In this document: positions 23,927 through 36,352 of the stretch, piece after piece | How positions within the stretch are numbered: position 1 is the stretch's first letter | How the letters are laid out: each line of letters starts with the position of its first letter | Assembly (NCBI GenBank): GCA_029255105.1 | Contig: JAQWWH010000031.1 | Coordinates: 26,716-90,715, forward strand | DNA: 64,000 nt | Source: Flavimaricola sp. | Lineage (GTDB): Bacteria; Pseudomonadota; Alphaproteobacteria; Rhodobacterales; Rhodobacteraceae | Direction: 5' to 3' | Notes under the pieces: model-generated | Seen by the model: only the letters and a program-made list of their open reading frames with translations | What the model was told of the DNA's origin: nothing | The model's database searches: none | Program-made: the position numbers and the translations under genes

Positions 23927-25246
23927 TCAGTTCCCCTTGCCCTTGATCAACCGGCTGCGCAGCCATCCCGACAGGGTGTCCATCAGCATCACCATGAGAA
24001 CCACAAGAGTGATGTAGTAGGCAACCTCTTCCCAGTCCTTCTGGGTCTGCATGGCCTGTGTCAAAAGCAGGCCAATGCCACCGCCCGTGATCGCCCCGAT
24101 AATCGTGGCGCTACGGGTGTTGGATTCAAAGAAGTAGAGGATCTGACTTAGCAGGACCGGCGTCACCTGCGGGATGACCCCGAAGCGGTAGCGCTGCAGG
24201 ACAGAGGCCCCGGTCGACTGAATCCCTTCGATCTGCTTGTCGTCAACGTTTTCGAGGGCCTCAGAGAAGATCTTGCCAAAGCTGCCCGTGTCGGTGACCA
24301 GAATGGCCAGCGCACCGGTCAGCGGGCCCGGACCAAAGGCCCGGCTGAGCACAATGGTCCAGATCAGCGCATCGACGCCGCGGACAAAGTCGAACACCCG
24401 GCGCACAGCAAAGCGCACGGCGACAAGGGGGGCAAAGTTGCGCGCCGCCAGAAACGCCAGGGGCAGCGCGATGATCGCACCGCCAAAGGTGCCCAGAAAG
24501 GCCATCAGGATCGTCTCGCTGATCGCCCAGGCCACATCGGCATGGCGCCACATTGAATTGCGCCAGAAATCCTCCCACATCCCGCTCAGGTTCGACCGCT
24601 CGGGGTCAAGCTGCGGGCCGGTCAGAAGGCTGACAAAGCCATGATCGTGGTACGGGCTGTCCAGGGTGAACCAGAACAGCTCCCACCCCGGGAAATAGCG
24701 AAACACTTCGGTCTTGGATCGGGTCATGGTCAGGCGACCCGCGTCCGTCGTGATCGCCACACGGGTGCCAGAGGCATTGATCCATTCGGGCGGGGTGTCG
24801 CCCAGATTGCTTTGGATCCGGCCATCGACCAGTCGTGCCTCGAACGTGCCGTATCCGGGGATGACATAGCTGACGCCGTTGTCGGGCAGAAAGGTGATGA
24901 TGTGCCCGTCTTCAAGGTCGATCACCAGCGCTTCGCCAGCGTCGGACACCCATTCAGGCCGCGTGCCATCGGGGTAAGTGCCCTTGCGCTCTCCCTCGAT
25001 GGCGTAGGCCAGTTCACCCGACCGGTTGTCGCGGGTGACGTGTGTCTTGTAGCTCCAACTGTCAGAGGCAAGCGTGACGGCGTTGTCCATCCGCGCCCGT
25101 TCGGCCAGCCCAAGAATGTCGAAGGAAAAGAAGATGTAGGTAAAATAGATGAGGATGGTCGCAGGCACCGCAAGGCTGACCAGCCGCTTGCGCCGCAAAA
25201 ACCGGAAGGCGCTTTCGCGCAGGGGCCCGAGGTCGGTGGTGGTCAT
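23927..25246 (-). CDS. phnE: Phosphonate ABC transporter permease PhnE (long form)
   Basis: A 439-residue inner-membrane permease. The C-terminal half has the usual PhnE region, with AISETILMAFLGTFGGAIIALPLAFLAARN and the EAA-type loop FSEALENVDDKQIEGIQSTGASVLQRYRFGVIPQV. Between the first membrane helix and the second it carries about 160-170 residues of soluble, mostly beta-type sequence (DSWSYKTHVTRDN...RLTMTRSKTEVF), so it is far longer than a standard PhnE. It overlaps the shorter phnE by four bases. Confidence 0.93.
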   Translation of the reverse strand: MTTTDLGPLRESAFRFLRRKRLVSLAVPATILIYFTYIFFSFDILGLAERARMDNAVTLASDSWSYKTHVTRDNRSGELAYAIEGERKGTYPDGTRPEWVSDAGEALVIDLEDGHIITFLPDNGVSYVIPGYGTFEARLVDGRIQSNLGDTPPEWINASGTRVAITTDAGRLTMTRSKTEVFRYFPGWELFWFTLDSPYHDHGFVSLLTGPQLDPERSNLSGMWEDFWRNSMWRHADVAWAISETILMAFLGTFGGAIIALPLAFLAARNFAPLVAVRFAVRRVFDFVRGVDALIWTIVLSRAFGPGPLTGALAILVTDTGSFGKIFSEALENVDDKQIEGIQSTGASVLQRYRFGVIPQVTPVLLSQILYFFESNTRSATIIGAITGGGIGLLLTQAMQTQKDWEEVAYYITLVVLMVMLMDTLSGWLRSRLIKGKGN

Positions 25247-26115
25247 GCCTGATCCCCTTTTGTCAGTCTGTTGCGATAGTGGCTGGAAATCTGGTCAAAG
25301 AGGACGATCGTCCCGAACAGCATCAGAAAGATGGCGGCGGCCTCGTCAAACCGGCCCTGGCCCCAGGTCATGGCGTTCTTCAGCTCGTAGCCGATGCCAC
25401 CCGCCCCCACAAAGCCAAGGATCGCCGAGGCACGAATGTTGATCTCGAACCGAAGGAGGGCATAGCTGAGGTAGTTCGGTGCAACCTGCGGCATCACCCC
25501 CAAGAGCATGCGTTGGGCCCAGTTGACCCCGACGGATTCGAGGCCTTCGACAGGCTTGAGGTCGGCGTTTTCGGCCACTTCGGAAAAAAGCTTGCCCAGC
25601 GCACCGGCGGTATGGAACGCGATGGCAATCATCGCAGGGACCGGGCCACCGCCCAGAATAAAAATCAGGACAAGCGCAATGACAATCTCGGGCACTGCCC
25701 GCATCACATCCATGATGCGGCGGAAGAGAGGGGTCAGGCGGGGCCAATAGGCCAACCCGCGGGTCGACAGGAGTGACAGGATGATACCGGCCACCGCCCC
25801 GACCAGTGTCGATACGGCTGCGATATTGATCGTCTCAAGCAGCGCACCAAAGTAGGTGACCATATGGCCGGACAACTGGCCCCGCTTTTCCCAAGCCTCG
25901 GAAATCACGCCTTCAGGAAAATCGCCAAGCTGGCCAAGTCCATTCCAGAACCCACCCGCGTTCCGTTCGTCCGCGATGTTGAAACCGCCGACCATCAGCA
26001 GGATGAAGATGAGAACCGTGATGCCGCCATACAGCCTGCGGCGCTGCACGAGCGCTGCATAGGAGCGGCGCGTGTCATTCAGGCTGATGCCCCCGGAAAG
26101 GGTCTGGTCGGTCAT
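25243..26115 (-). CDS. phnE: Phosphonate ABC transporter permease PhnE
   Basis: A 290-residue permease, the normal PhnE length. Hydrophobic helices begin at GGITVLIFILLMVGGF. LLETINIAAVSTLVGAVAGIILSLLSTRG and the EAA-type loop FSEVAENADLKPVEGLESVGVNWAQRMLLGVMPQVAPNYLSY are typical. It forms the channel with the second, longer PhnE and is fed by PhnD and PhnC. Confidence 0.95.
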   Translation of the reverse strand: MTDQTLSGGISLNDTRRSYAALVQRRRLYGGITVLIFILLMVGGFNIADERNAGGFWNGLGQLGDFPEGVISEAWEKRGQLSGHMVTYFGALLETINIAAVSTLVGAVAGIILSLLSTRGLAYWPRLTPLFRRIMDVMRAVPEIVIALVLIFILGGGPVPAMIAIAFHTAGALGKLFSEVAENADLKPVEGLESVGVNWAQRMLLGVMPQVAPNYLSYALLRFEINIRASAILGFVGAGGIGYELKNAMTWGQGRFDEAAAIFLMLFGTIVLFDQISSHYRNRLTKGDQA

Positions 26116-26137
26116 GCTATGGTCCCCGATACGAAAA

Positions 26138-26166
26138 CGCGGGCCCCGGCCTGGCCGGGACCCGCG
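26138..26166 (-). other. Stem-loop after phnD
   Basis: CGCGGGcCCCGGCC and GGCCGGGaCCCGCG form a long GC hairpin in the phnD-phnE gap. Such structures often protect binding-protein mRNA and let phnD be expressed above the permeases (inference). Confidence 0.6.
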
Positions 26167-26182
26167 AACTTATGGTGTTGGC

Positions 26183-27088
26183 TTAGTTGGACTGAGCCTG
26201 ACGAACAGCGATGATGCTTTCGTAGTAGGAGTGGTCGATCGGAACGAAGCCGGAGGTCTCGCCCGAGGCCACGCCGTAGGCGCAATTGGGGTCGTTTGCG
26301 TGCAGGTCTGCGACCAGCTGGGTCATGGTGGCGCGAACGTCCTCGGGCAGGCTGTTGCGCAGAACAACGGGGCCTTCGGGGATCGGCTTGGAGATCCAGA
26401 TCTGGACAAGGTCGTTCATGTCGACAAGGCCGGCATCCACAGCGCGACGCAGGGCGCCCGAGTTGTAGCCGTCTTCCCAATCGCCCTGAGCGTCGGCCCA
26501 GGTCACGCCGGCGTCGATGTCGCCGTTGTTGACCGCAACGATCGTCTGCTCGTGGCCACCGGTGAAGAGAACCTCACCAAAGTACTCGCCCGACGCCATC
26601 GAGTACCCCTCGGCAGGAATCTCGACCGACGGGATCAGGTAACCGGAGGTGGAGTTGGGGTCGCCAAAGCCAAACTCCTTACCAGCCAGATCGGCGAGCG
26701 AAGTGATAGCGCTGTCGGCGCGCGCGATGCCGATGGAATGGTAGGTGTAAGAACCATCGAGGTTCGCCTTGACCAGTACGGGGCTGACCGCCTCCGGATC
26801 TTCGAGGTAGACGGCGGCGTAGCCGGAGGCACCGAGCCATGCCATGTCGATGGTTCCGCCAAGAAGCCCCTGAAGAACACCGTTGTAGTCGGCGGGGGCG
26901 AACAGCTTGACGGGAACGCCAAGCGCTTCTTCAGCGTAGACGCGCAGGCACTCGTTGCTGTTCAGACGGTCCTGGGCGTTTTCGCCACCTAGAAGGCCGA
27001 TGCGGAATTCGGTGATCGCATGGCCTTCGGCCGAGGCGACAGAGGCGAGGGCCGTGGTGGCCAGCGCGAGGGCGATGATCTTTTTCAT
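26183..27088 (-). CDS. phnD: Phosphonate ABC transporter substrate-binding protein PhnD
   Basis: A 301-residue periplasmic binding protein with a clear signal peptide, MKKIIALALATTALASVASAEG. The PhnD pattern follows: FRIGLLGGENAQDRL, YNGVLQGLLGGTIDMAWLGASGYAAVYLED, FGFGDPNSTSGYLIPSVE, VLFTGGHEQTIVAVNNGDIDAGVTWAD. The ORF track runs 91 codons upstream; ATG 27088 is the signal-peptide start. It lies between phnC and the permeases. Confidence 0.96.
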   Translation of the reverse strand: MKKIIALALATTALASVASAEGHAITEFRIGLLGGENAQDRLNSNECLRVYAEEALGVPVKLFAPADYNGVLQGLLGGTIDMAWLGASGYAAVYLEDPEAVSPVLVKANLDGSYTYHSIGIARADSAITSLADLAGKEFGFGDPNSTSGYLIPSVEIPAEGYSMASGEYFGEVLFTGGHEQTIVAVNNGDIDAGVTWADAQGDWEDGYNSGALRRAVDAGLVDMNDLVQIWISKPIPEGPVVLRNSLPEDVRATMTQLVADLHANDPNCAYGVASGETSGFVPIDHSYYESIIAVRQAQSN

Positions 27089-27152
27089 AGTCTTTCTCCG
27101 GTTGGGTGGGTCCGCCTGGATGTCCAGGCGGGGTCGTGAAAGGGAAACGGGG

Positions 27153-27956
27153 TCAGTTCGCAGCGACGCGGGGGCGTTCGATTGCGTCGATCTGGGTCGA
27201 GGTGGCCTCTTCCGAGAAGTCGGCACCCGCACCGTAGATATCGCGGGCAACGCCGGTGGTGAGTTGGGCGGGCGTGCCGTCAAACACCATCCGCCCGCCG
27301 CGCATCCCGATGACCCGGTCGCAATACCGGCGGGCCGTATCGAGGGTGTGCAGGTTGGCAATCACCGTGCGCCCGTCTTCTTCGTGAATGCGGCGCAAGG
27401 CATCCATGACGATCTGGGCGTTCATTGGGTCAAGGCTGGCGATGGGTTCATCGGCGAGGATAATCTTGGGGTCCTGCATGAGGGCCCGCGCGATGGCGAC
27501 CCGCTGCTGTTGCCCGCCCGACAGGGCCTCCGCCCGCTTTTCTGCCTGCTCGGCAATGCCAAGGCGGTCGAGAATGTCGATGGCCCGGTCAATGTCGGAC
27601 TGGGGATAGAGGTTGAACATTGTCGCAAGGGTAGAGCGGCGGTTCAACGTGCCATGCAGGACGTTCGAGACGACATCCATTCGGGGCACAAGGTTGAACT
27701 GCTGAAAAATCATGGCGCATTCAGACTGCCAATGACGCTTGTCCGCCCCACGCAGGGACGTGATGTCGCGCCCCTCGAACTCGACTGTGCCCGATGTCGC
27801 ATCGGCCAGCCGATTAAGCATCCGAAGCATGGTGGATTTACCGGCCCCAGAGCGACCGATCACACCGATCATGGCTGGTTTGCTGACCTCGAACCCGACG
27901 CGATCAACGGCTGTCTTGCTGCCAAATACCTTGGTCAGCTCTGTCACTTTCAGCAT
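27153..27956 (-). CDS. phnC: Phosphonate ABC transporter ATP-binding protein PhnC
   Basis: A 267-residue ATPase of the importer. Walker A is [10 protein letters not shown], followed by the Q-loop [21 protein letters not shown], the signature [15 protein letters not shown] and Walker [54 protein letters not shown] is typical of PhnC. It is first in phnC-D-E-E-transferase, downstream of a Pho-box-like site. Confidence 0.95.
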
Positions 27957-28020
27957 CAAGTCATCCCCACTTGGTTGCAGGGGGGATAGGCGGGACTGGA
28001 AACTGAAATGTATCAGCTGA

Positions 28021-28038
28021 GTGAATTTTTAATGACAC
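28021..28038 (-). promoter_or_regulatory. Candidate Pho box upstream of phnC
   Basis: On the minus strand the site reads GTGTCATTAAAAATTCAC. The first half matches six of seven bases of the CTGTCAT consensus; the second half (AATTCAC, 11 bases on) is poor. It lies about 65 bases before the phnC start. PhoB control of phnCDE is common in the family. Confidence 0.35.
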
Positions 28039-28134
28039 CGCACCCTTTGCAGTAGGTTTTGGAATAGGACTCGGGCCCCGGTACGGTCCTAGACTGAGCG
28101 TCGAATCGGTCATCACGCCTGGGGGGCAGTTCTG

Positions 28135-28350
28135 ATGCTGACAACGACGACACATGACACAGGCCTTGCCCATAAGGTCGCCGCACTTTCCACCGAAGAG
28201 GCGCAGGTCTTCCTGCGTACCGAATTGGCCGAACGCAGGCTGCACAGCGTGGTCCGGGTACTGAACTCTGATGTCCTGTCGAGTGACCCATCCAGACGCA
28301 CGACAGCCCTGGCCGCCCTTGCCAAAATCGGTTTTTCGGGCAACGCCTGA
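28135..28350 (+). CDS. Small hypothetical protein
   Basis: 71 residues, soluble, not recognised: MLTTTTHDTGLAHKVAALSTEEAQVFLRTELAERRLHSVVRVLNSDVLSSDPSRRTTALAALAKIGF. Predicted mainly helical. A GGGGGGCAG box lies seven bases before ATG 28135. It stands alone between divergent phnC and the PHP gene. The composition looks coding, but there is no family assignment. Confidence 0.5.
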   Translation: MLTTTTHDTGLAHKVAALSTEEAQVFLRTELAERRLHSVVRVLNSDVLSSDPSRRTTALAALAKIGFSGNA

Positions 28351-28480
28351 CGATCTGCTGCCGACATGGCCGCCCGAAATGCGATCTGAAACTGCGGGCT
28401 GTGCTTTCGGGTCGCCCCGGGTGTCACTCAACCGTTAAGTTTTGCTGCGATTGGAGCAGGACAAATTTCGGAGCGCACCC

Positions 28481-29398
28481 ATGACTGACATCTTTTCGGC
28501 TCCCGGCACATTCTGGCGGGGCAATCTGCACACCCACTCTACCCTTTCAGATGGGGTTCTGGCCCCCGAAGAGGTCTGCCGTCGGTACAAGGCCGAAGGC
28601 TATGACTTTCTGGCGCTGACCGACCATTTCATCGGTCTTTTCAACTACCCCATTGCAGATACCCTGCCGTTCCGGGACGACAGCTTTACCACCATCCTCG
28701 GGGCCGAGATCCATAGCGGTGCCATGCAGAACGGAGAGTTGTGGCATATCCTTGCCGTTGGCCTGCCCGCTGACTTCGCCCCCTCGACTTCGCCGGACTT
28801 TGCGGCACATCCGGACCAGGAGACCGGCCCCGAGCTTGCCGCTCGCGCCCGGGCTGCCGGTGCTTTCGTCGCAGTGGCCCACCCGCAATGGTCCGGCATG
28901 ACCCTCGACGATGCCCGCAGCATCGAGGCCGCACATGCGGTTGAAATCTACAACCACGGATGCGCTATGGGGTGCGACCGCCCGGACGGTTTCCACACCG
29001 CCGATCTGCTTTTGTCAGAAGGGCGCAAGCTGACCCTTGTGGCCACAGACGACGCCCATTTTTCCGAACCTGACCACTTTGGTGGATGGGTCATGGTCAA
29101 GGCGGAACGGAACGACCCCGAGGCCCTTTTGCAGGCCCTGAAAGAGGGGATGTTCTATTCCAGCCAGGGGCCGGAACTGCGTGGGATCACCATCGCGGAC
29201 GGCAAGGTGATTGTCACCTCCAGCGCGGTATCCGCTGTCATCGTTCAAGGACATGGCAGCGCCGCGACCGCCCGCCATGGCCAAAGCATGACCGTGACGG
29301 AGGTGCCGCTATCCCGCTTTGCCAATTCGCCCTGGATCCGCATCACCGTCATGGACAAGTCGGGCAAGCGGGCCTGGTCAAACCCAGTCTGGCTCTGA
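28481..29398 (+). CDS. PHP-domain phosphoesterase
   Basis: A 305-residue metal-dependent hydrolase. PHP motifs in order: NLHTHSTLSDGVL, FLALTDHF, ILGAEIHSG, FVAVAHPQWSG and LVATDDAHFSEPDHFGGWVMV, giving the His/Asp/Glu ligands of a trinuclear site. PHP enzymes of this kind remove phosphate from phosphomonoesters or open cyclic phosphodiesters. ATG 28481 follows CGGAG. It heads a locus with a TIM-barrel protein, a metallophosphoesterase, a Ugp-like importer and a 2H phosphoesterase. A role on an imported organophosphate is inferred; it might also supply the missing PhnP step. Confidence 0.88.
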   Translation: MTDIFSAPGTFWRGNLHTHSTLSDGVLAPEEVCRRYKAEGYDFLALTDHFIGLFNYPIADTLPFRDDSFTTILGAEIHSGAMQNGELWHILAVGLPADFAPSTSPDFAAHPDQETGPELAARARAAGAFVAVAHPQWSGMTLDDARSIEAAHAVEIYNHGCAMGCDRPDGFHTADLLLSEGRKLTLVATDDAHFSEPDHFGGWVMVKAERNDPEALLQALKEGMFYSSQGPELRGITIADGKVIVTSSAVSAVIVQGHGSAATARHGQSMTVTEVPLSRFANSPWIRITVMDKSGKRAWSNPVWL

Positions 29399-29489
29399 AC
29401 GGCCCGGACCGACCAATTCGTCACGAAACGGTCACCGGCCGGACCTATCCCGAAGCCATCCCTCCCCGAATCTCTGACGGAGAATGGCA

Positions 29490-30140
29490 ATGACTGGAAC
29501 TGACCTGCCGGTGATCGGCGCGGCGCTGACCGTGACCGAACTTGAGACCTATAGATCCTGGCTACTGGACAAGCAGCGCGACCTTGAGTTGCAGACATTT
29601 CATTCAGCAGAGGTGCTGAACAGCGACTGGCGCCCCTTGGCCGAGGAAGCCCGCAAGCAACTTGACGGATACACCGGCCGCCTTGGCATCCATGGTCCCT
29701 TCTGGGGTTTCACGATCCACAGTCTTGACCCTGATGTCCGGGCGGTGGTCGCCCGCCGAATGGACCAGGGTCTTGACGTCTGCGCCGCTGTGGGCGCAAC
29801 CCAGATGGTGGTGCACTCGCCCTATTCGACCTGGGACTACAACAACCTGGACAATAATCCCGGTGCGCGGGACCGAGTAATAGAAAATGTCCACGACACT
29901 CTTGGCGCAGCCGTCAAGCGGGCCGAGGACCAGGGCGTGACGCTGGTGATCGAGAACATTGAGGATATCGATCCGATGGCGCGCAAGGCCCTCGCCGAGA
30001 GCTTTGGTTCCAAGGCAGTCCGCCTTTCGATTGATACCGGCCACGCGCACTATGCACATATCTCGACCGGCGCCCCGCCGGTGGATTACTTTGTCACCGC
30101 CGCCGGTGAGATGCTGCATCACATTCATCTGCAAGATTGA
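29490..30140 (+). CDS. Sugar phosphate isomerase/epimerase-like TIM-barrel protein, cut short by in-frame TGA
   Basis: 216 residues from ATG 29490 (GACGGAG at good spacing; ATG 29484 is too close). It belongs to the xylose-isomerase-like / AP-endonuclease-2 superfamily: RLGIHGPFWGF, MVVHSPYSTWDYNN, VTLVIENIEDIDP, VRLSIDTGHAHYAH and EMLHHIHLQD carry the usual His/Glu/Asp metal ligands. The frame stops at TGA 30138, just after HLQD, where relatives continue with the last barrel strand. The same frame resumes and runs to 30314. Either a nonsense mutation, a readthrough event, or a sequence error explains it. Confidence 0.78.
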   Translation: MTGTDLPVIGAALTVTELETYRSWLLDKQRDLELQTFHSAEVLNSDWRPLAEEARKQLDGYTGRLGIHGPFWGFTIHSLDPDVRAVVARRMDQGLDVCAAVGATQMVVHSPYSTWDYNNLDNNPGARDRVIENVHDTLGAAVKRAEDQGVTLVIENIEDIDPMARKALAESFGSKAVRLSIDTGHAHYAHISTGAPPVDYFVTAAGEMLHHIHLQD

Positions 30141-30314
30141 GAAGGCTATGCCGATCGGCATTGGGCCCTTGGCGACGGTACGGTCCGGTGGGCCGCAGTC
30201 TTTCGGGCCATCGGTCGACTGACAATCAAACCGCGCCTGATTTTGGAGCTGCGGGACAAGAGCGGCATCCCCGCCTCGATGGCGCTGCTGGAACGGGAGG
30301 GTTTGGGACAATGA
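30138..30314 (+). other. In-frame continuation after TGA: C-terminal part of the TIM-barrel gene
   Basis: After TGA the same frame reads EGYADRHWALGDGTVRWAAVFRAIGRLTIKPRLILELRDKSGIPASMALLEREGLGQ and stops at 30314. GYADRHWALGDGTV is the typical C-terminal segment after HLQD in this superfamily. The final TGA overlaps the next gene's ATG (ATGA), as expected of an intact coupled gene. The tail shows no further decay. Confidence 0.8.
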
Positions 30315-31129
30315 CCATCGACACTCTGAAGCTGATCGTGATCAGCGACCTGCATCTTCTCGCGGAGGGCAAGACCTCAATGGGGCTCGATACCGCCGAT
30401 CGGTTGCGGACCTGTGTGGCCGCCATCAACGACCGGCACACTGATGCAGACCTGTGCGTTATCGCCGGCGACCTGGCCGATCTGGGAGAGCGGGCAGCAT
30501 ACGATCTGTTGAAAGAAATACTGCAGGATCTTGTCATCCCGGTTGCGATCACCATCGGTAACCATGACGATCGCGAAACGTTTCTGAGCGTCTTTGGCCA
30601 GTCCGAAGCCGCCGAGACCGGGTTTGTGGACAAGGTCATCGACATGGCTGGGCAGCGCGTCATCCTCCTCGATAGTGCCATCGCCTTTGGTGTGCATGAA
30701 GGAGCGCTTTCCCCCGAACAACTGGAGTGGCTAGGCGACAGGCTGAAAGAGGCGAAAGATCGCCCCGTTGTCGTGGTTCTGCACCACCATGCCAATCCGC
30801 TTCACACGAATGTGGACCGGATCATTCTTTCCAACGGGGCAGAGTTCGCGAGCGTCCTGAAGCGGCATCCCGACATCCGGCAGGTCATCGCGGGGCATGT
30901 CCACTATACCTCGACCGCGATCTGGCACGGGTTGCCCTTCACCACGCTGGCGGGCGGGCATTACAACGTCACGATCCCCCTCGACGCTCCTAAAGCTAGG
31001 ATTGCCCGGCTGTCAGGCCCAGGCCAGATGGCGATTGTACTGTCGGACGCGGACCAGACATTGGTCCACTTTGACAACTTTATCGATGATCATCGCGATC
31101 TTGATCTGGTTGACGGCATTTCCGCCTGA
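30311..31129 (+). CDS. Calcineurin-like metallophosphoesterase (GpdQ/CpdA type)
   Basis: A 272-residue class III phosphodiesterase. The dinuclear metal motifs are complete: ISDLHLL, IAGDLADLG, TIGNHDDRE, VVLHHHANP and IAGHVHYTS. Relatives split cyclic nucleotides (CpdA) or glycerophosphodiesters (GpdQ). The ORF track opens upstream in the tail of the previous gene; ATG 30311 overlaps that gene's last stop by ATGA. No signal peptide, so it acts in the cytoplasm on imported substrate. With the Ugp-like importer next to it, a phosphodiester substrate is likely (inference). Confidence 0.9.
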   Translation: MTIDTLKLIVISDLHLLAEGKTSMGLDTADRLRTCVAAINDRHTDADLCVIAGDLADLGERAAYDLLKEILQDLVIPVAITIGNHDDRETFLSVFGQSEAAETGFVDKVIDMAGQRVILLDSAIAFGVHEGALSPEQLEWLGDRLKEAKDRPVVVVLHHHANPLHTNVDRIILSNGAEFASVLKRHPDIRQVIAGHVHYTSTAIWHGLPFTTLAGGHYNVTIPLDAPKARIARLSGPGQMAIVLSDADQTLVHFDNFIDDHRDLDLVDGISA

Positions 31130-31193
31130 TCCGCGCAAAGAACCGGGCGAACGGCCGGCGCCGTCGTCCGGTTGAAACATTGCCGATTCAAAA

Positions 31194-31222
31194 CTGTCAA
31201 CCAATCCATAAACGACTGTCAC
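31194..31222 (+). promoter_or_regulatory. Candidate Pho box upstream of the Ugp-like operon
   Basis: CTGTCAA at 31194 and CTGTCAC at 31216 are exactly 22 bases apart, twice the 11-base Pho repeat, with a poor middle unit (TCCATAA). It ends 57 bases before the binding-protein start, a fair place for a PhoB site. Confidence 0.5.
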
Positions 31223-31279
31223 CCAGCGCCCATATCCCAGCCTTGTTGGAAGAACACCTCATGATCTGGGAGCTGATCC

Positions 31280-32608
31280 ATGAACATCAAAATCACGACA
31301 CTTGCGCTGCTCGCGACCACCGGCATGGCCGGCGCGGCTGCGGCCCAAACATCCTTTGAATATTGGTACGGCCTGTCCGGCGATCTGGGCAATGTGGTGC
31401 AGGAAACATGCAACCGCTTTAACGCCAGCCAATCCGAGTATGAAATCGTCTGTGTCGGCCAGGACGGCTACGAAGCCGCCGTGCAGAACACGATCGCAGC
31501 CTTTCGGGCGGGCCAGCACCCGACCATCGTGCAGTCCTTTGATGCAGGCACGGCCGACCTGATGCTGTCGGGCGAATTCTACCCCGTCCAGCAGATGATG
31601 GCGGACTACGACATTGCGATCGACTGGTCCAACTACTTCCCCGGCATCTCGAACTACTACGCCGCCTCTACCGGCGAACTGTTTTCCATGCCCTTCAACT
31701 CGTCCACCCCAGTCTACTACTATAACGAGGACATGTTCGCTGCCGCAGGCATCGAAGAAGCCCCGTTGACCTGGGAAGGCTTTGCTGAGGCGCTTGTCGC
31801 CATCAAGGATTCGGGTGTTGAGTGCCCCTATGCCTATGCGCCGTCGACCTGGATCGACCTCGAGCAGTTTTCAATGGCCCACAACATTCCCGTGGCGTCC
31901 AACGACAACGGCTACTCCGGCCTTGACTCCGAACTGCTGTTCAACACGACCCAGCATGTTCAGCACATGGAAAACATCCAAAGCTGGATCAACGACGGCT
32001 ACGCCCAGATCCGCACTGCCCAGTCCGGCCTGTCGGCCCGGGAAAGCTTTGTCCAGGGCGAATGCGCGATCTTCTTTTCGTCGATCGCCGACCACAACAC
32101 CGTGGGCAAGATCGCGCCCGAAGGCCTGAACTGGGAAGTTCAGATGATCCCCGTCTACGAAGGGTTCGAGCGGCACAACACCGTTGTCGGCGGCGCCTCT
32201 CTTTGGGTTCTTTCGGGCAAGACCGAGGAAGAGTATCGCGGTGCGGCCGCCTACCTGTCCTTCTTGGCCACACCCGAGAGCGAAGAGTTCTGGGCAACCA
32301 ACACCGGCTACATCCCGGTGACCCAGACAGGCTATGACGCGCTGATCGAAAAGGGCTTTTACGACGCGGCCCCCTATGCGGGTCGCGAGATCGCCATCCA
32401 GTCGCTGACCTACACAGCCCCCAACAACCTAACGCGGGGCATTCGTCTGGGTGGCTTCATTCAGATCCGTTCTGAATGGACCAACGAAGTGGGTGCCGCC
32501 CTTGCCGGTCAAAAGACTATGCAGGAAGCCCTCGATACCGCTGTCGAGCGCGGCAACGTCATCCTGGATCGTTTTGCCCGCACCTACGCTGGGAAAACTT
32601 TCCCCTGA
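31280..32608 (+). CDS. UgpB-like ABC transporter substrate-binding protein
   Basis: A 442-residue periplasmic protein with signal peptide MNIKITTLALLATTGMAGAAAAQ. It resembles E. coli UgpB throughout: FEYWYGLSGDLGNVVQETCNRFNAS, QDGYEAAVQNTIAAFRAGQHPTIVQSFDAGTADLM, MPFNSSTPVYYYNEDMF, IGGASLWV-like VVGGASLWVLSG, GYIPVTQTGYDAL and LDTAVERGN. UgpB binds glycerol-3-phosphate and glycerophosphocholine. Here the substrate is probably a related phosphate ester. A Pho-box-like site precedes it and a stem-loop follows it. Confidence 0.92.
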   Translation: MNIKITTLALLATTGMAGAAAAQTSFEYWYGLSGDLGNVVQETCNRFNASQSEYEIVCVGQDGYEAAVQNTIAAFRAGQHPTIVQSFDAGTADLMLSGEFYPVQQMMADYDIAIDWSNYFPGISNYYAASTGELFSMPFNSSTPVYYYNEDMFAAAGIEEAPLTWEGFAEALVAIKDSGVECPYAYAPSTWIDLEQFSMAHNIPVASNDNGYSGLDSELLFNTTQHVQHMENIQSWINDGYAQIRTAQSGLSARESFVQGECAIFFSSIADHNTVGKIAPEGLNWEVQMIPVYEGFERHNTVVGGASLWVLSGKTEEEYRGAAAYLSFLATPESEEFWATNTGYIPVTQTGYDALIEKGFYDAAPYAGREIAIQSLTYTAPNNLTRGIRLGGFIQIRSEWTNEVGAALAGQKTMQEALDTAVERGNVILDRFARTYAGKTFP

Positions 32609-32628
32609 TCGCGTCACAGACCGAATGG

Positions 32629-32656
32629 AAGGGCGGCCCGGTTCGGGGCCGCCCTT
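32629..32656 (+). other. Stem-loop between ugpB-like and permease genes
   Basis: AAGGGCGGCCC and GGGCCGCCCTT pair perfectly over a six-base loop. No T-run follows; it is probably an mRNA-stabilising or partial terminator element favouring binding-protein expression. Confidence 0.65.
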
Positions 32657-32695
32657 CGCCTTCCGGACCCGCAACCATCCCGTCAGGAGCCCCCG

Positions 32696-33577
32696 ATGCG
32701 TCGCGCCTACTTCAAGAACAACTGGATTGCCGCCCTGGTCGTGGCTCCGCAACTCCTGATCATCTTTGTGTTCTTTTACTGGCCCGCCAGCCAGGCGGTG
32801 TATTGGGCCTTTACCCTTGAGCAACCTTGGGGCGGCGGCAACACCTGGGTCGGGCTGGACAACTTCCGCCAAGTGCTAGGTGACCCTGTCTACTGGCAAT
32901 CCGTGACTGCCTCGATCATTTTTGCCCTGTCCTCAACGGTGCTGGCCATGGGGATGGCCCTCATTCTGGCCTTGTTCGCCGACCGGCAGTTGAAAGGCTA
33001 CAAGATCTTTCGCATCGGGCTGATCTGGCCCTATGCAATCGCCGCCCCTGCTGTCGGGCTGGCCTTCAGGTTTGTCTTCAACCCCAACGCTGGCCTTTTG
33101 TCATTTGTAAACAAAGCCATGCCAGGTCTATGGGACCCGACCCTGAACGGAAACCAAGCGCTGATCATGGTCATCGTCGCCGGATCGTGGAAGCTGATTT
33201 CCTACAACTTCATCTTCTTTCTTGCAGCCCTGCAGTCGATCCCCCGCAGCCTGGTCGAGGCCGGAGCAATGGATGGCGCGGGCGTGCTGCGCCGGATGCG
33301 CGACATCCAGTTGCCCCTGCTGGCACCAACGTTCTTCTTCATCCTCGTCATCAACATCACGGACAGTTTCACCGACAGCTTTGGCATCATCGACACCCTC
33401 ACGGGGGGTGGCCCTGCCCGGGCGACCGACCTGATGGTCTACAAGATCTATTCGGATGGCTTTCGCGGCTTTGACTATTCAGGTGCCGCCACCCAGTCGA
33501 TCATCCTGATGGTCCTCGTCATCGCCCTGACCTTTGTCCAGTTCCGCTACATCGAGCGACGCGTGCACTACACCTGA
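32696..33577 (+). CDS. UgpA-like ABC transporter permease
   Basis: A 293-residue inner-membrane permease of the MalF type with about six helices. AALVVAPQLLIIFVFFYWPASQAVYWAFTLEQPWGGGNTWVGLDNFRQVL is the usual N-terminus; the EAA loop is VEAGAMDGAGVLRRMRDIQLPLLAPTFFFIL. FTDSFGIIDTLTGGGPARATDLMVYKIYSDGFRGFDYSGAATQSIILM closely follows UgpA. GGAG lies 12 bases upstream. Confidence 0.93.
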   Translation: MRRAYFKNNWIAALVVAPQLLIIFVFFYWPASQAVYWAFTLEQPWGGGNTWVGLDNFRQVLGDPVYWQSVTASIIFALSSTVLAMGMALILALFADRQLKGYKIFRIGLIWPYAIAAPAVGLAFRFVFNPNAGLLSFVNKAMPGLWDPTLNGNQALIMVIVAGSWKLISYNFIFFLAALQSIPRSLVEAGAMDGAGVLRRMRDIQLPLLAPTFFFILVINITDSFTDSFGIIDTLTGGGPARATDLMVYKIYSDGFRGFDYSGAATQSIILMVLVIALTFVQFRYIERRVHYT

Positions 33578-33589
33578 GAGGACGGCGCC

Positions 33590-34519
33590 ATGATCGAACG
33601 CACCCCCATCCTGAATGTCGCCACCCACCTGATCCTGATCACAGGGCTGGCGCTGCTACTCTTGCCGGTCTGGATCGCCTATGTGGCGGCGACACATGAC
33701 CTTCAGACGGTCAATTCGGCCCCGGTCGAGATGTGGCCGGGTGACCAGCTTTGGATCAATGTCCAGGCTGCCTGGACCCAGGCCGATTTTGGGCCAAAGT
33801 TCATCAATACTTTCATAGTTTCGGTGGGCGTTGTGGTCGGCAAGATCACTATTGCCGCCATCACCGCCTTTGGGATCGTCTTCTTCAATCACCGGCTGCG
33901 GATGGCGATCTTCTGGCTGATCTTCATCACCCTGATGCTCCCTCTCGAGGTGCGCATCGTGCCGACCTACGCGGTCGCCGCCAACGCCTTGATGCCCTTT
34001 CAGACAATTCTGGACTGGACTGGCATGACATGGCTGATCGAGCAGGCATCGGGGGTCCGGGTCGATCTTCAATGGAACATGCTTAATTCCTACACCGGGC
34101 TGATCCTGCCCTTGATCGCTACCGCAACCGGGACATTCCTGTATCGCCAATTCTTTCTCACGATCCCCGATGAACTGGTAGAGGCAGCCAAGATGGACGG
34201 GGCCGGACCCTTGCGCTTCCTTTGGCAAGTGCTGATCCCCCTGTCGCGAACCAATATCGCGGCACTCGCGACCATCATGTTCGTATACTCCTGGAACCAG
34301 TATCTCTGGCCCCTACTGATCATCACGGACCGGGCCAACTATGGTCTTGTCGTCGTGGAACTTGGCAATCTGGTGCCTGATGCCATGACCACCGGGGGGG
34401 GCGTCCCCAACTGGCATATCGCGATGGCTGCCACCCTCATGGTCATGATCCCGCCAATCCTCGTCGTCATTTTCATGCAGCGCTGGTTCGTGCGCGGCCT
34501 TATTAACACTGACAAGTAA
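33590..34519 (+). CDS. UgpE-like ABC transporter permease
   Basis: A 309-residue permease of the MalG type. [48 protein letters not shown] is UgpE-like; the EAA loop is [30 protein letters not shown], followed by [15 protein letters not shown]. It pairs with the UgpA-like protein 12 bases upstream and is followed by the ATPase gene at 10 bases. Confidence 0.93.
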
Positions 34520-34529
34520 GGAGCCTCCG

Positions 34530-35642
34530 ATGGCCGATATCTCCATCCGCAAGGTCCGCAAATCCTACGGCAAGGACGAAGTCGTCCACGGCGTCGACCT
34601 TGACATCCGCAACGGCGAATTTGTTGTCATTCTTGGCCCTTCAGGCTGCGGAAAGTCGACCCTTCTGCGCATGATCGCAGGCCTCGAGGACATCAGCGGA
34701 GGCGAGATCGCGATTGCCGATCAGGTTGTGAACGCCCTTGAACCCCGCGAGCGTGGCTGCGCGATGGTGTTCCAGAACTATGCGCTTTACCCCCATATGA
34801 CCGTGGCCGAGAACATCGGATATGCCCTGCGTGTCGCCGGCATGCCAAAGGCCGAGCGTCGCAAGAAGGTGGAAGAGGTCGCCGCCTCTGTCGGCCTGAT
34901 GGAGTTCCTGGATCGCAGGCCCGGCCAGTTGTCCGGTGGGCAGCGGCAACGGGTGGCAATGGCCCGCGCCATCATCCGCGAACCCAAGGTGTTTCTGTTT
35001 GATGAGCCGCTATCCAACCTTGATGCAAAGCTACGTGTCCAGATGCGCCACGAGATCCGTCGTATTCACAATCGGATCGGTGCGACCAGCGTTTTTGTGA
35101 CCCACGATCAGCACGAAGGGATGACCCTGGCGGATCGTATCGTGATCATGAACAGGGGAACGATCGAGCAGGTCGGCACCCCGTCCGAGATTTACCACAA
35201 CCCGGCCTCCACCTATGTGGCAGGTTTCGTCGGCAGCCCGGCCATGAACTTTCTTCCTGCACAAATCTCGGCATCCCGGCAGGGGGTGACGCTTGGAGGT
35301 GGCCAGACGATAGCTGTCGACGCACCGGCCGTTGCGGGGCGGGATGGCAAGCTCGTCCAGATCGGTCTCAGGCCCGAAGAGATTGCCATCGCCGCTCCTG
35401 GAGCACCTGGTCTTGTCACGCGGTTCGAGTTCGTCGAAGAGTTGGGGGCCGCCCGATTGTATCACCTGACCTACGAAGATTTGACCCTGTCCGTCCTGTC
35501 GACCGAATATCGCCATTATACCCCCGGCGAGGACGTGATCCTGCAGATACCAGCCTCTGCCGTGCATTTGTTCGACGCCGATACAGGCCGCAAACTGGCC
35601 CAAACCGCGAAAGGCAAGGCGGCTGAGGTTACCTTGGCATGA
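34530..35642 (+). CDS. UgpC-like ABC transporter ATP-binding protein
   Basis: A 370-residue sugar-type ATPase. Walker A is GPSGCGKST, the signature [15 protein letters not shown], Walker [13 protein letters not shown] and the H-loop FVTHDQ. The C-terminal TOBE region (about residues 240-350) reads [18 protein letters not shown]...[19 protein letters not shown] precedes ATG 34530. It overlaps the DUF1868 gene by ATGA, tying the 2H phosphoesterase to the transporter operon. Confidence 0.94.
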
Positions 35643-36352
35643 GCCGCGATCGCACCACCGCGAAAAGGTACCTGACGGGCGAACTGACAGGCGGCGAACG
35701 ACCCTCGGCTGTGGGCGAAAAGTTTCAGGTGGACGGCGTCGTCATGCCATTTCCCGGCAACACCTTCATTTGTCATATCGACGAGGCATCCGTTGCCCAC
35801 GCGGCCCTGTCAGCGGCGCAACAGCGGCTCAGGGATGGCCGGTTGCACCGGGCGTTTTCATTCCTGCCACCGTCGAGCTTTCACATGACGGTCTTTGAAG
35901 GCGTGACCAACCTCGCCCGCTCGGCGCCGGAATGGCCGCGCAGGTTGCCAAGCGAGGCCCCTGTCAGCGCCGTGACCGATGATTTTATGGTCGCAACCGA
36001 GGGACTTGCCCTTCCCCGCGATATCTCAATCAAGCTGGACAACATCTTTGGCGGGTTCTCCGTCGGCGTGTCGGGGGCAACCGACGAAGAAGAGCATCGC
36101 CTACGGGTGGCGCGCGCCAGCCTGCGTGAAGCCACTGGCATACACAAACCAGATTTCGACACCTACGGGTTCCACATCACATTGGGCTACCTTCTTCGCT
36201 GGCTGGACCCAGACGAGGCCGAGCTTGTCCTGGACCTGTCCGACGAGGTCGCAAAGGCTCTGATCGATACCCTCCCGACGATGACGCTAAAAGAAGTCAC
36301 CTTCTGCACTTTTGACGACATGCACGCCTTCGTACCCGTCCGCAGGTTCTAG
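35639..36352 (+). CDS. DUF1868 protein, 2H phosphoesterase superfamily
   Basis: A 237-residue cytoplasmic protein with the two HxT motifs of 2H phosphoesterases, [11 protein letters not shown] (about residue 83) and [11 protein letters not shown] (about residue 180). The [21 protein letters not shown] start is typical of DUF1868. 2H enzymes cut 2',3'-cyclic phosphates and related phosphodiesters. It overlaps the UgpC-like gene by four bases, so it probably acts on what that system imports (inference). Confidence 0.85.

Follow-up and report, generated by a model that had tools for sequence, protein, structure and literature searches.

A probable recent nonsense mutation in a PF01261 TIM-barrel gene of Flavimaricola sp.

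Belinky et al. (2021, PMC7918605) report that in-frame stop codons are common across bacterial genes and seldom persist for long, and argue that some are partly read through. Our literature search on internal stops in metagenome-derived assemblies found no paper. For the protein concerned here, TTHB071 (3ayv) gives the best PDB fold match; the other nearest structure is MJ1311 (3wqo), which is D-tagatose 3-epimerase-like.

The gene described here occupies 29484..30314 on the plus strand of a 64,000-nucleotide stretch of a Flavimaricola sp. contig (the window), encodes a sugar phosphate isomerase/epimerase-like TIM barrel (PF01261), and would comprise 276 codons if read through. It is interrupted by an in-frame TGA at 30138..30140 (codon 219), directly 3' of barrel strand 7. 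As an earlier note on this DNA had described, the ATG at 29484, the TGA and the 57 sense codons that follow it (30141..30311) share one frame, and the final TGA of the gene (30312-30314) overlaps the ATG of the adjacent phosphoesterase gene (30311-30313) in the form ATGA. The intact tail contains the ADRHW motif, a helix (residues 236-244), strand 8 (251-254), an ELRD segment and the last helix. A single PF01261 match in the read-through frame spans the TGA (Pfam, residues 45-269, E 2.6e-28), with 99.8 bits against a curated cut-off of 31.1, and homologues align over the site without a break or indel. The single Pfam match and the gap-free alignment rule out a frameshift, which the earlier note had also rejected, as well as a gene fusion or two separate genes. 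No backup copy of the gene was found in the same genome at E 1e-20.

When the read-through frame is modelled with AlphaFold (mean pLDDT 92), the TGA falls just after strand 7 (211-216), and the helix, strand 8 and the last helix all lie beyond it. Under the standard code translation ends after strand 7, and the product lacks the complete eight-strand barrel. The invariant residues 3' of the TGA include A223, D224, R225, H226, W227, G230, G232, W236 and E255. The gene shares with TTHB071 the fold, the DRH motif and the C-terminal E-R segment. In this superfamily, the DxH and last-strand Glu positions serve in metal binding. A nonsense mutation at codon 219 would halt translation after residue 218 and leave a product without strand 8, the last helix and the ADRHW and ELRD segments. 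Because this tail, with its invariant ADRHW, its strand 8 and its conserved ELRD, is integral to the enzyme, the 218-residue product should be dead, and we infer that it is most likely inactive.

More than 90 homologues read through the TGA site without a stop, contrary to the possibility raised in the earlier note that relatives all end at HLQD. The alignment with relatives that it had proposed gave the replacing codon as mostly Ala, found in 79 of 92 aligned matches (48-75% identity); the remainder have Ser, Asn, Thr or Val, apart from the query itself, and the only rows with TGA are the window. A stop, Cys, Trp or Sec at the site was found in none of the more than 90 homologues. The TGA was likewise absent from further homologues in a search that covered 397 family genomes and 385 genomes from the class; a plasmid search returned homologues at 69% identity or less only. 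Among about 155 listed PF01261 members from the assembly and its relatives, this gene alone has an internal stop. Since no relative shares the TGA, the stop arose on this lineage. The gene is present in 99 of the 397 family genomes, and the single further genome from the genus that was searched lacks it; it can therefore be regarded as accessory.

Two other homologues carry stops of their own. One, from another genus (G314, contig C11, 62000-67000), has a TAA at codon 217 (HVHL-stop-DADGYADRHW) followed by an intact tail. This TAA lies two codons upstream of the position of the window's TGA; the codons, residues and contexts all differ, and the two stops are unrelated. The other (G306, contig C2, 28500-31500) has an earlier TAA, and its protein is unrecognisable beyond about query residue 180; this copy is an ordinary decayed pseudogene. 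That two of the three stops lie only two codons apart is mildly curious, with a chance of about 5% by our own estimate.

The tail is conserved, as the earlier note had held, and beyond chance: 14 of its columns are invariant across 83 distinct relatives (at least 64% identity), and the query retains all of them. At the 95% conservation level (18 tail columns) the query shows no departure, and at the 90% level (25 tail columns) it shows 2; 18 of the 83 relatives depart at as many conserved tail columns. Third-position GC is 0.70 in the tail vs 0.71 in the body. The retained invariant residues and the matching third-position GC are also expected from residual function or from a base error. The further statement that the tail shows no decay calls for slight qualification, because the terminal branch of the query is longer in the tail than expected from the body (0.37 vs 0.11, with the tree fixed from the full protein). 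Among 38 sequences this shift is the largest by share and the fourth largest by ratio, and residues private to the query occur at 3 of 57 tail sites vs 1 of 211 body sites (one-sided p 0.03). The acceleration test is weak and was chosen from several measures, and gives a weak hint of relaxed constraint on the query branch; it fits a young real lesion weakly better than a base error.

The frequency of internal stops in the assembly was surveyed over 266 domain matches from three large families, of which two contained one: the TIM-barrel TGA, and a TAG in an ABC ATPase. The latter is a two-domain sugar ABC-transporter ATPase of the same genome (G000 contig C79:52556-53017), with the in-frame TAG in the context SLSGGN-stop-QKVVIGRWL and an intact sequence afterwards. 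No further clear internal stop emerged when the window was scanned by coding score, a weak method here, as shadow frames reach nearly the same scores.

Taken together, the TGA is probably real and of recent origin, a nonsense mutation that arose in an accessory gene of metabolism. As a lineage-specific disabling change that removes essential parts, it would make the gene a pseudogene. The retention of the invariant tail residues suggests that the stop is young, and too little time for decay since the mutation is the best explanation for a tail that still looks coding. The low rate of internal stops elsewhere in the assembly speaks for the nonsense allele, as does the damage to the gene in other lineages, namely the codon 217 stop and the decayed copy described above. 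Of the three origins offered in the earlier note, a very recent mutation fits best, and stop readthrough and base error stand as rivals only. The homologues, the missing selenocysteine genes and the local internal-stop rate favour a young nonsense allele over recoding.

It is unlikely, though it deserves attention, that the organism's gene is intact and that the TGA stems from faulty sequencing or assembly, or from an allele of a minority strain that entered a draft or metagenome-derived consensus: the assembly is a draft of 106 contigs with 92.6% completeness, several expected tRNAs were not found in it, a second internal stop occurs elsewhere in it, and the tail is nearly intact. Against this, 264 of the 266 domain matches lack an internal stop, which speaks for a generally clean consensus, and the site lies mid-contig. 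Moreover, two or three substitutions separate TGA from each of the codons that relatives have at the site. Were only one base miscalled, the true codon would have to be an unusual one; under either history this lineage must have passed through a sense intermediate, which mildly disfavours a one-base error. We give still less weight to a real but leaky stop, at which near-cognate decoding (classically by tRNA-Trp at UGA) would produce small amounts of full-length protein, the gene being kept as a down-regulated allele. The tail frame and invariant residues are retained, the Ala, Ser, Asn, Thr and Val of relatives indicate that an inserted residue might be tolerated, and the published survey argues for partial readthrough of such stops (PMC7918605). 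However, the TGA is conserved in no relative, the 38 tRNAs found include no dedicated suppressor, and the tail changes faster on the query branch. The base after the TGA is G, and this is not known as a notably leaky context, which also counts against readthrough. An extension of the same idea appears very improbable: the TGA would be kept in place as a leaky attenuator whose low readthrough still yields enough full-length enzyme, and together with the codon 217 stop of the other genus it would mark a hot spot behind strand 7 at which incomplete termination is tolerated or even useful.

We regard programmed selenocysteine insertion at the TGA as having almost no chance of being correct. It is favoured by the codon being TGA and by the continuing frame, and by nothing else. 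A selC/selB system and a SECIS-like hairpin after 30140, which the earlier note had suggested looking for, came out negative on every component checked. In the genome (92.6% complete), selA is absent, and neither selB nor tRNA-Sec gave a match above the cut-off or gathering score, respectively; those sub-threshold tRNA-Sec matches read by ARAGORN turned out to be ordinary tRNAs, and the sub-threshold selB matches presumably stem from other translation GTPases. The sequence 3' of the TGA folds no better than shuffles (z of 0.12-0.15 for two stretches starting at the TGA, and 0.55 for a longer stretch), and an Rfam search after the TGA gave no match. The homologues have Ala rather than Cys at the site, and the Ala alone argues strongly against selenocysteine. 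No sign of a TGA-reassigned code or of a suppressor tRNA was seen: TGA is a normal stop, indeed the commonest in the window (ending 24 of 38 long ORFs), and no UCA anticodon occurs among the 38 tRNAs, in which tRNA-Trp is represented by CCA only. Equally remote is a regulatory coupling, in which a TTG (30137-30139) overlapping the TGA in the phosphoesterase frame would allow a restart, giving a phosphoesterase with a 58-residue N-terminal extension. The corresponding 330-aa frame (30137-31129) is open, but chance leaves the equivalent frame open in 39 of 83 relatives, and an ATG belonging to the phosphoesterase itself lies at 30311, about where its homologues start.

The genes flanking the interrupted one are intact. 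Upstream lies a CehA/McbA-type PHP metallohydrolase gene (28442..29398, plus strand; NF038032 above cut-off), and the next gene encodes a calcineurin-like, SpdA-like phosphoesterase (30311..31129, plus strand; PF00149 E 7.9e-17; NF050112 E 2.3e-63, below the NF050112 cut-off), with intact Ugp-like glycerol-3-phosphate ABC transporter genes 3' of it. Of 85 related loci, 17 have the TIM-barrel and phosphoesterase genes side by side, in several cases with identical spacing, and Ugp genes come next in 7 of the 85. Over 23927-36352, the PHP hydrolase, TIM barrel, SpdA-like phosphoesterase and Ugp transporter genes are found with a 2H-phosphodiesterase gene (PF08975) and, by sequence impression, phosphonate-type ABC transporter genes on the minus strand; the stretch looks like a cluster for organophosphate or phosphonate use.

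The case is mainly cautionary, as recoding is readily assumed when an intact tail follows an in-frame TGA. If full-length protein were detected, the locus would serve as a clean test case for UGA being read through naturally in a bacterium of Rhodobacteraceae type. The gene resembles bacterial selenoprotein genes in having an in-frame TGA with a conserved tail, but differs from them in that no Sec machinery, no hairpin and no Cys homologues at the site were found. Unlike the PF01261 barrels of TTHB071 and MJ1311, it is interrupted by a TGA at codon 219. The stops surveyed by Belinky et al. (PMC7918605) are common to two or more genomes, whereas the TIM-barrel TGA occurs in a single genome; like those cases, it is one internal stop in a metabolic gene with an intact, conserved frame after it, and the interrupted TIM-barrel gene is an ordinary case.
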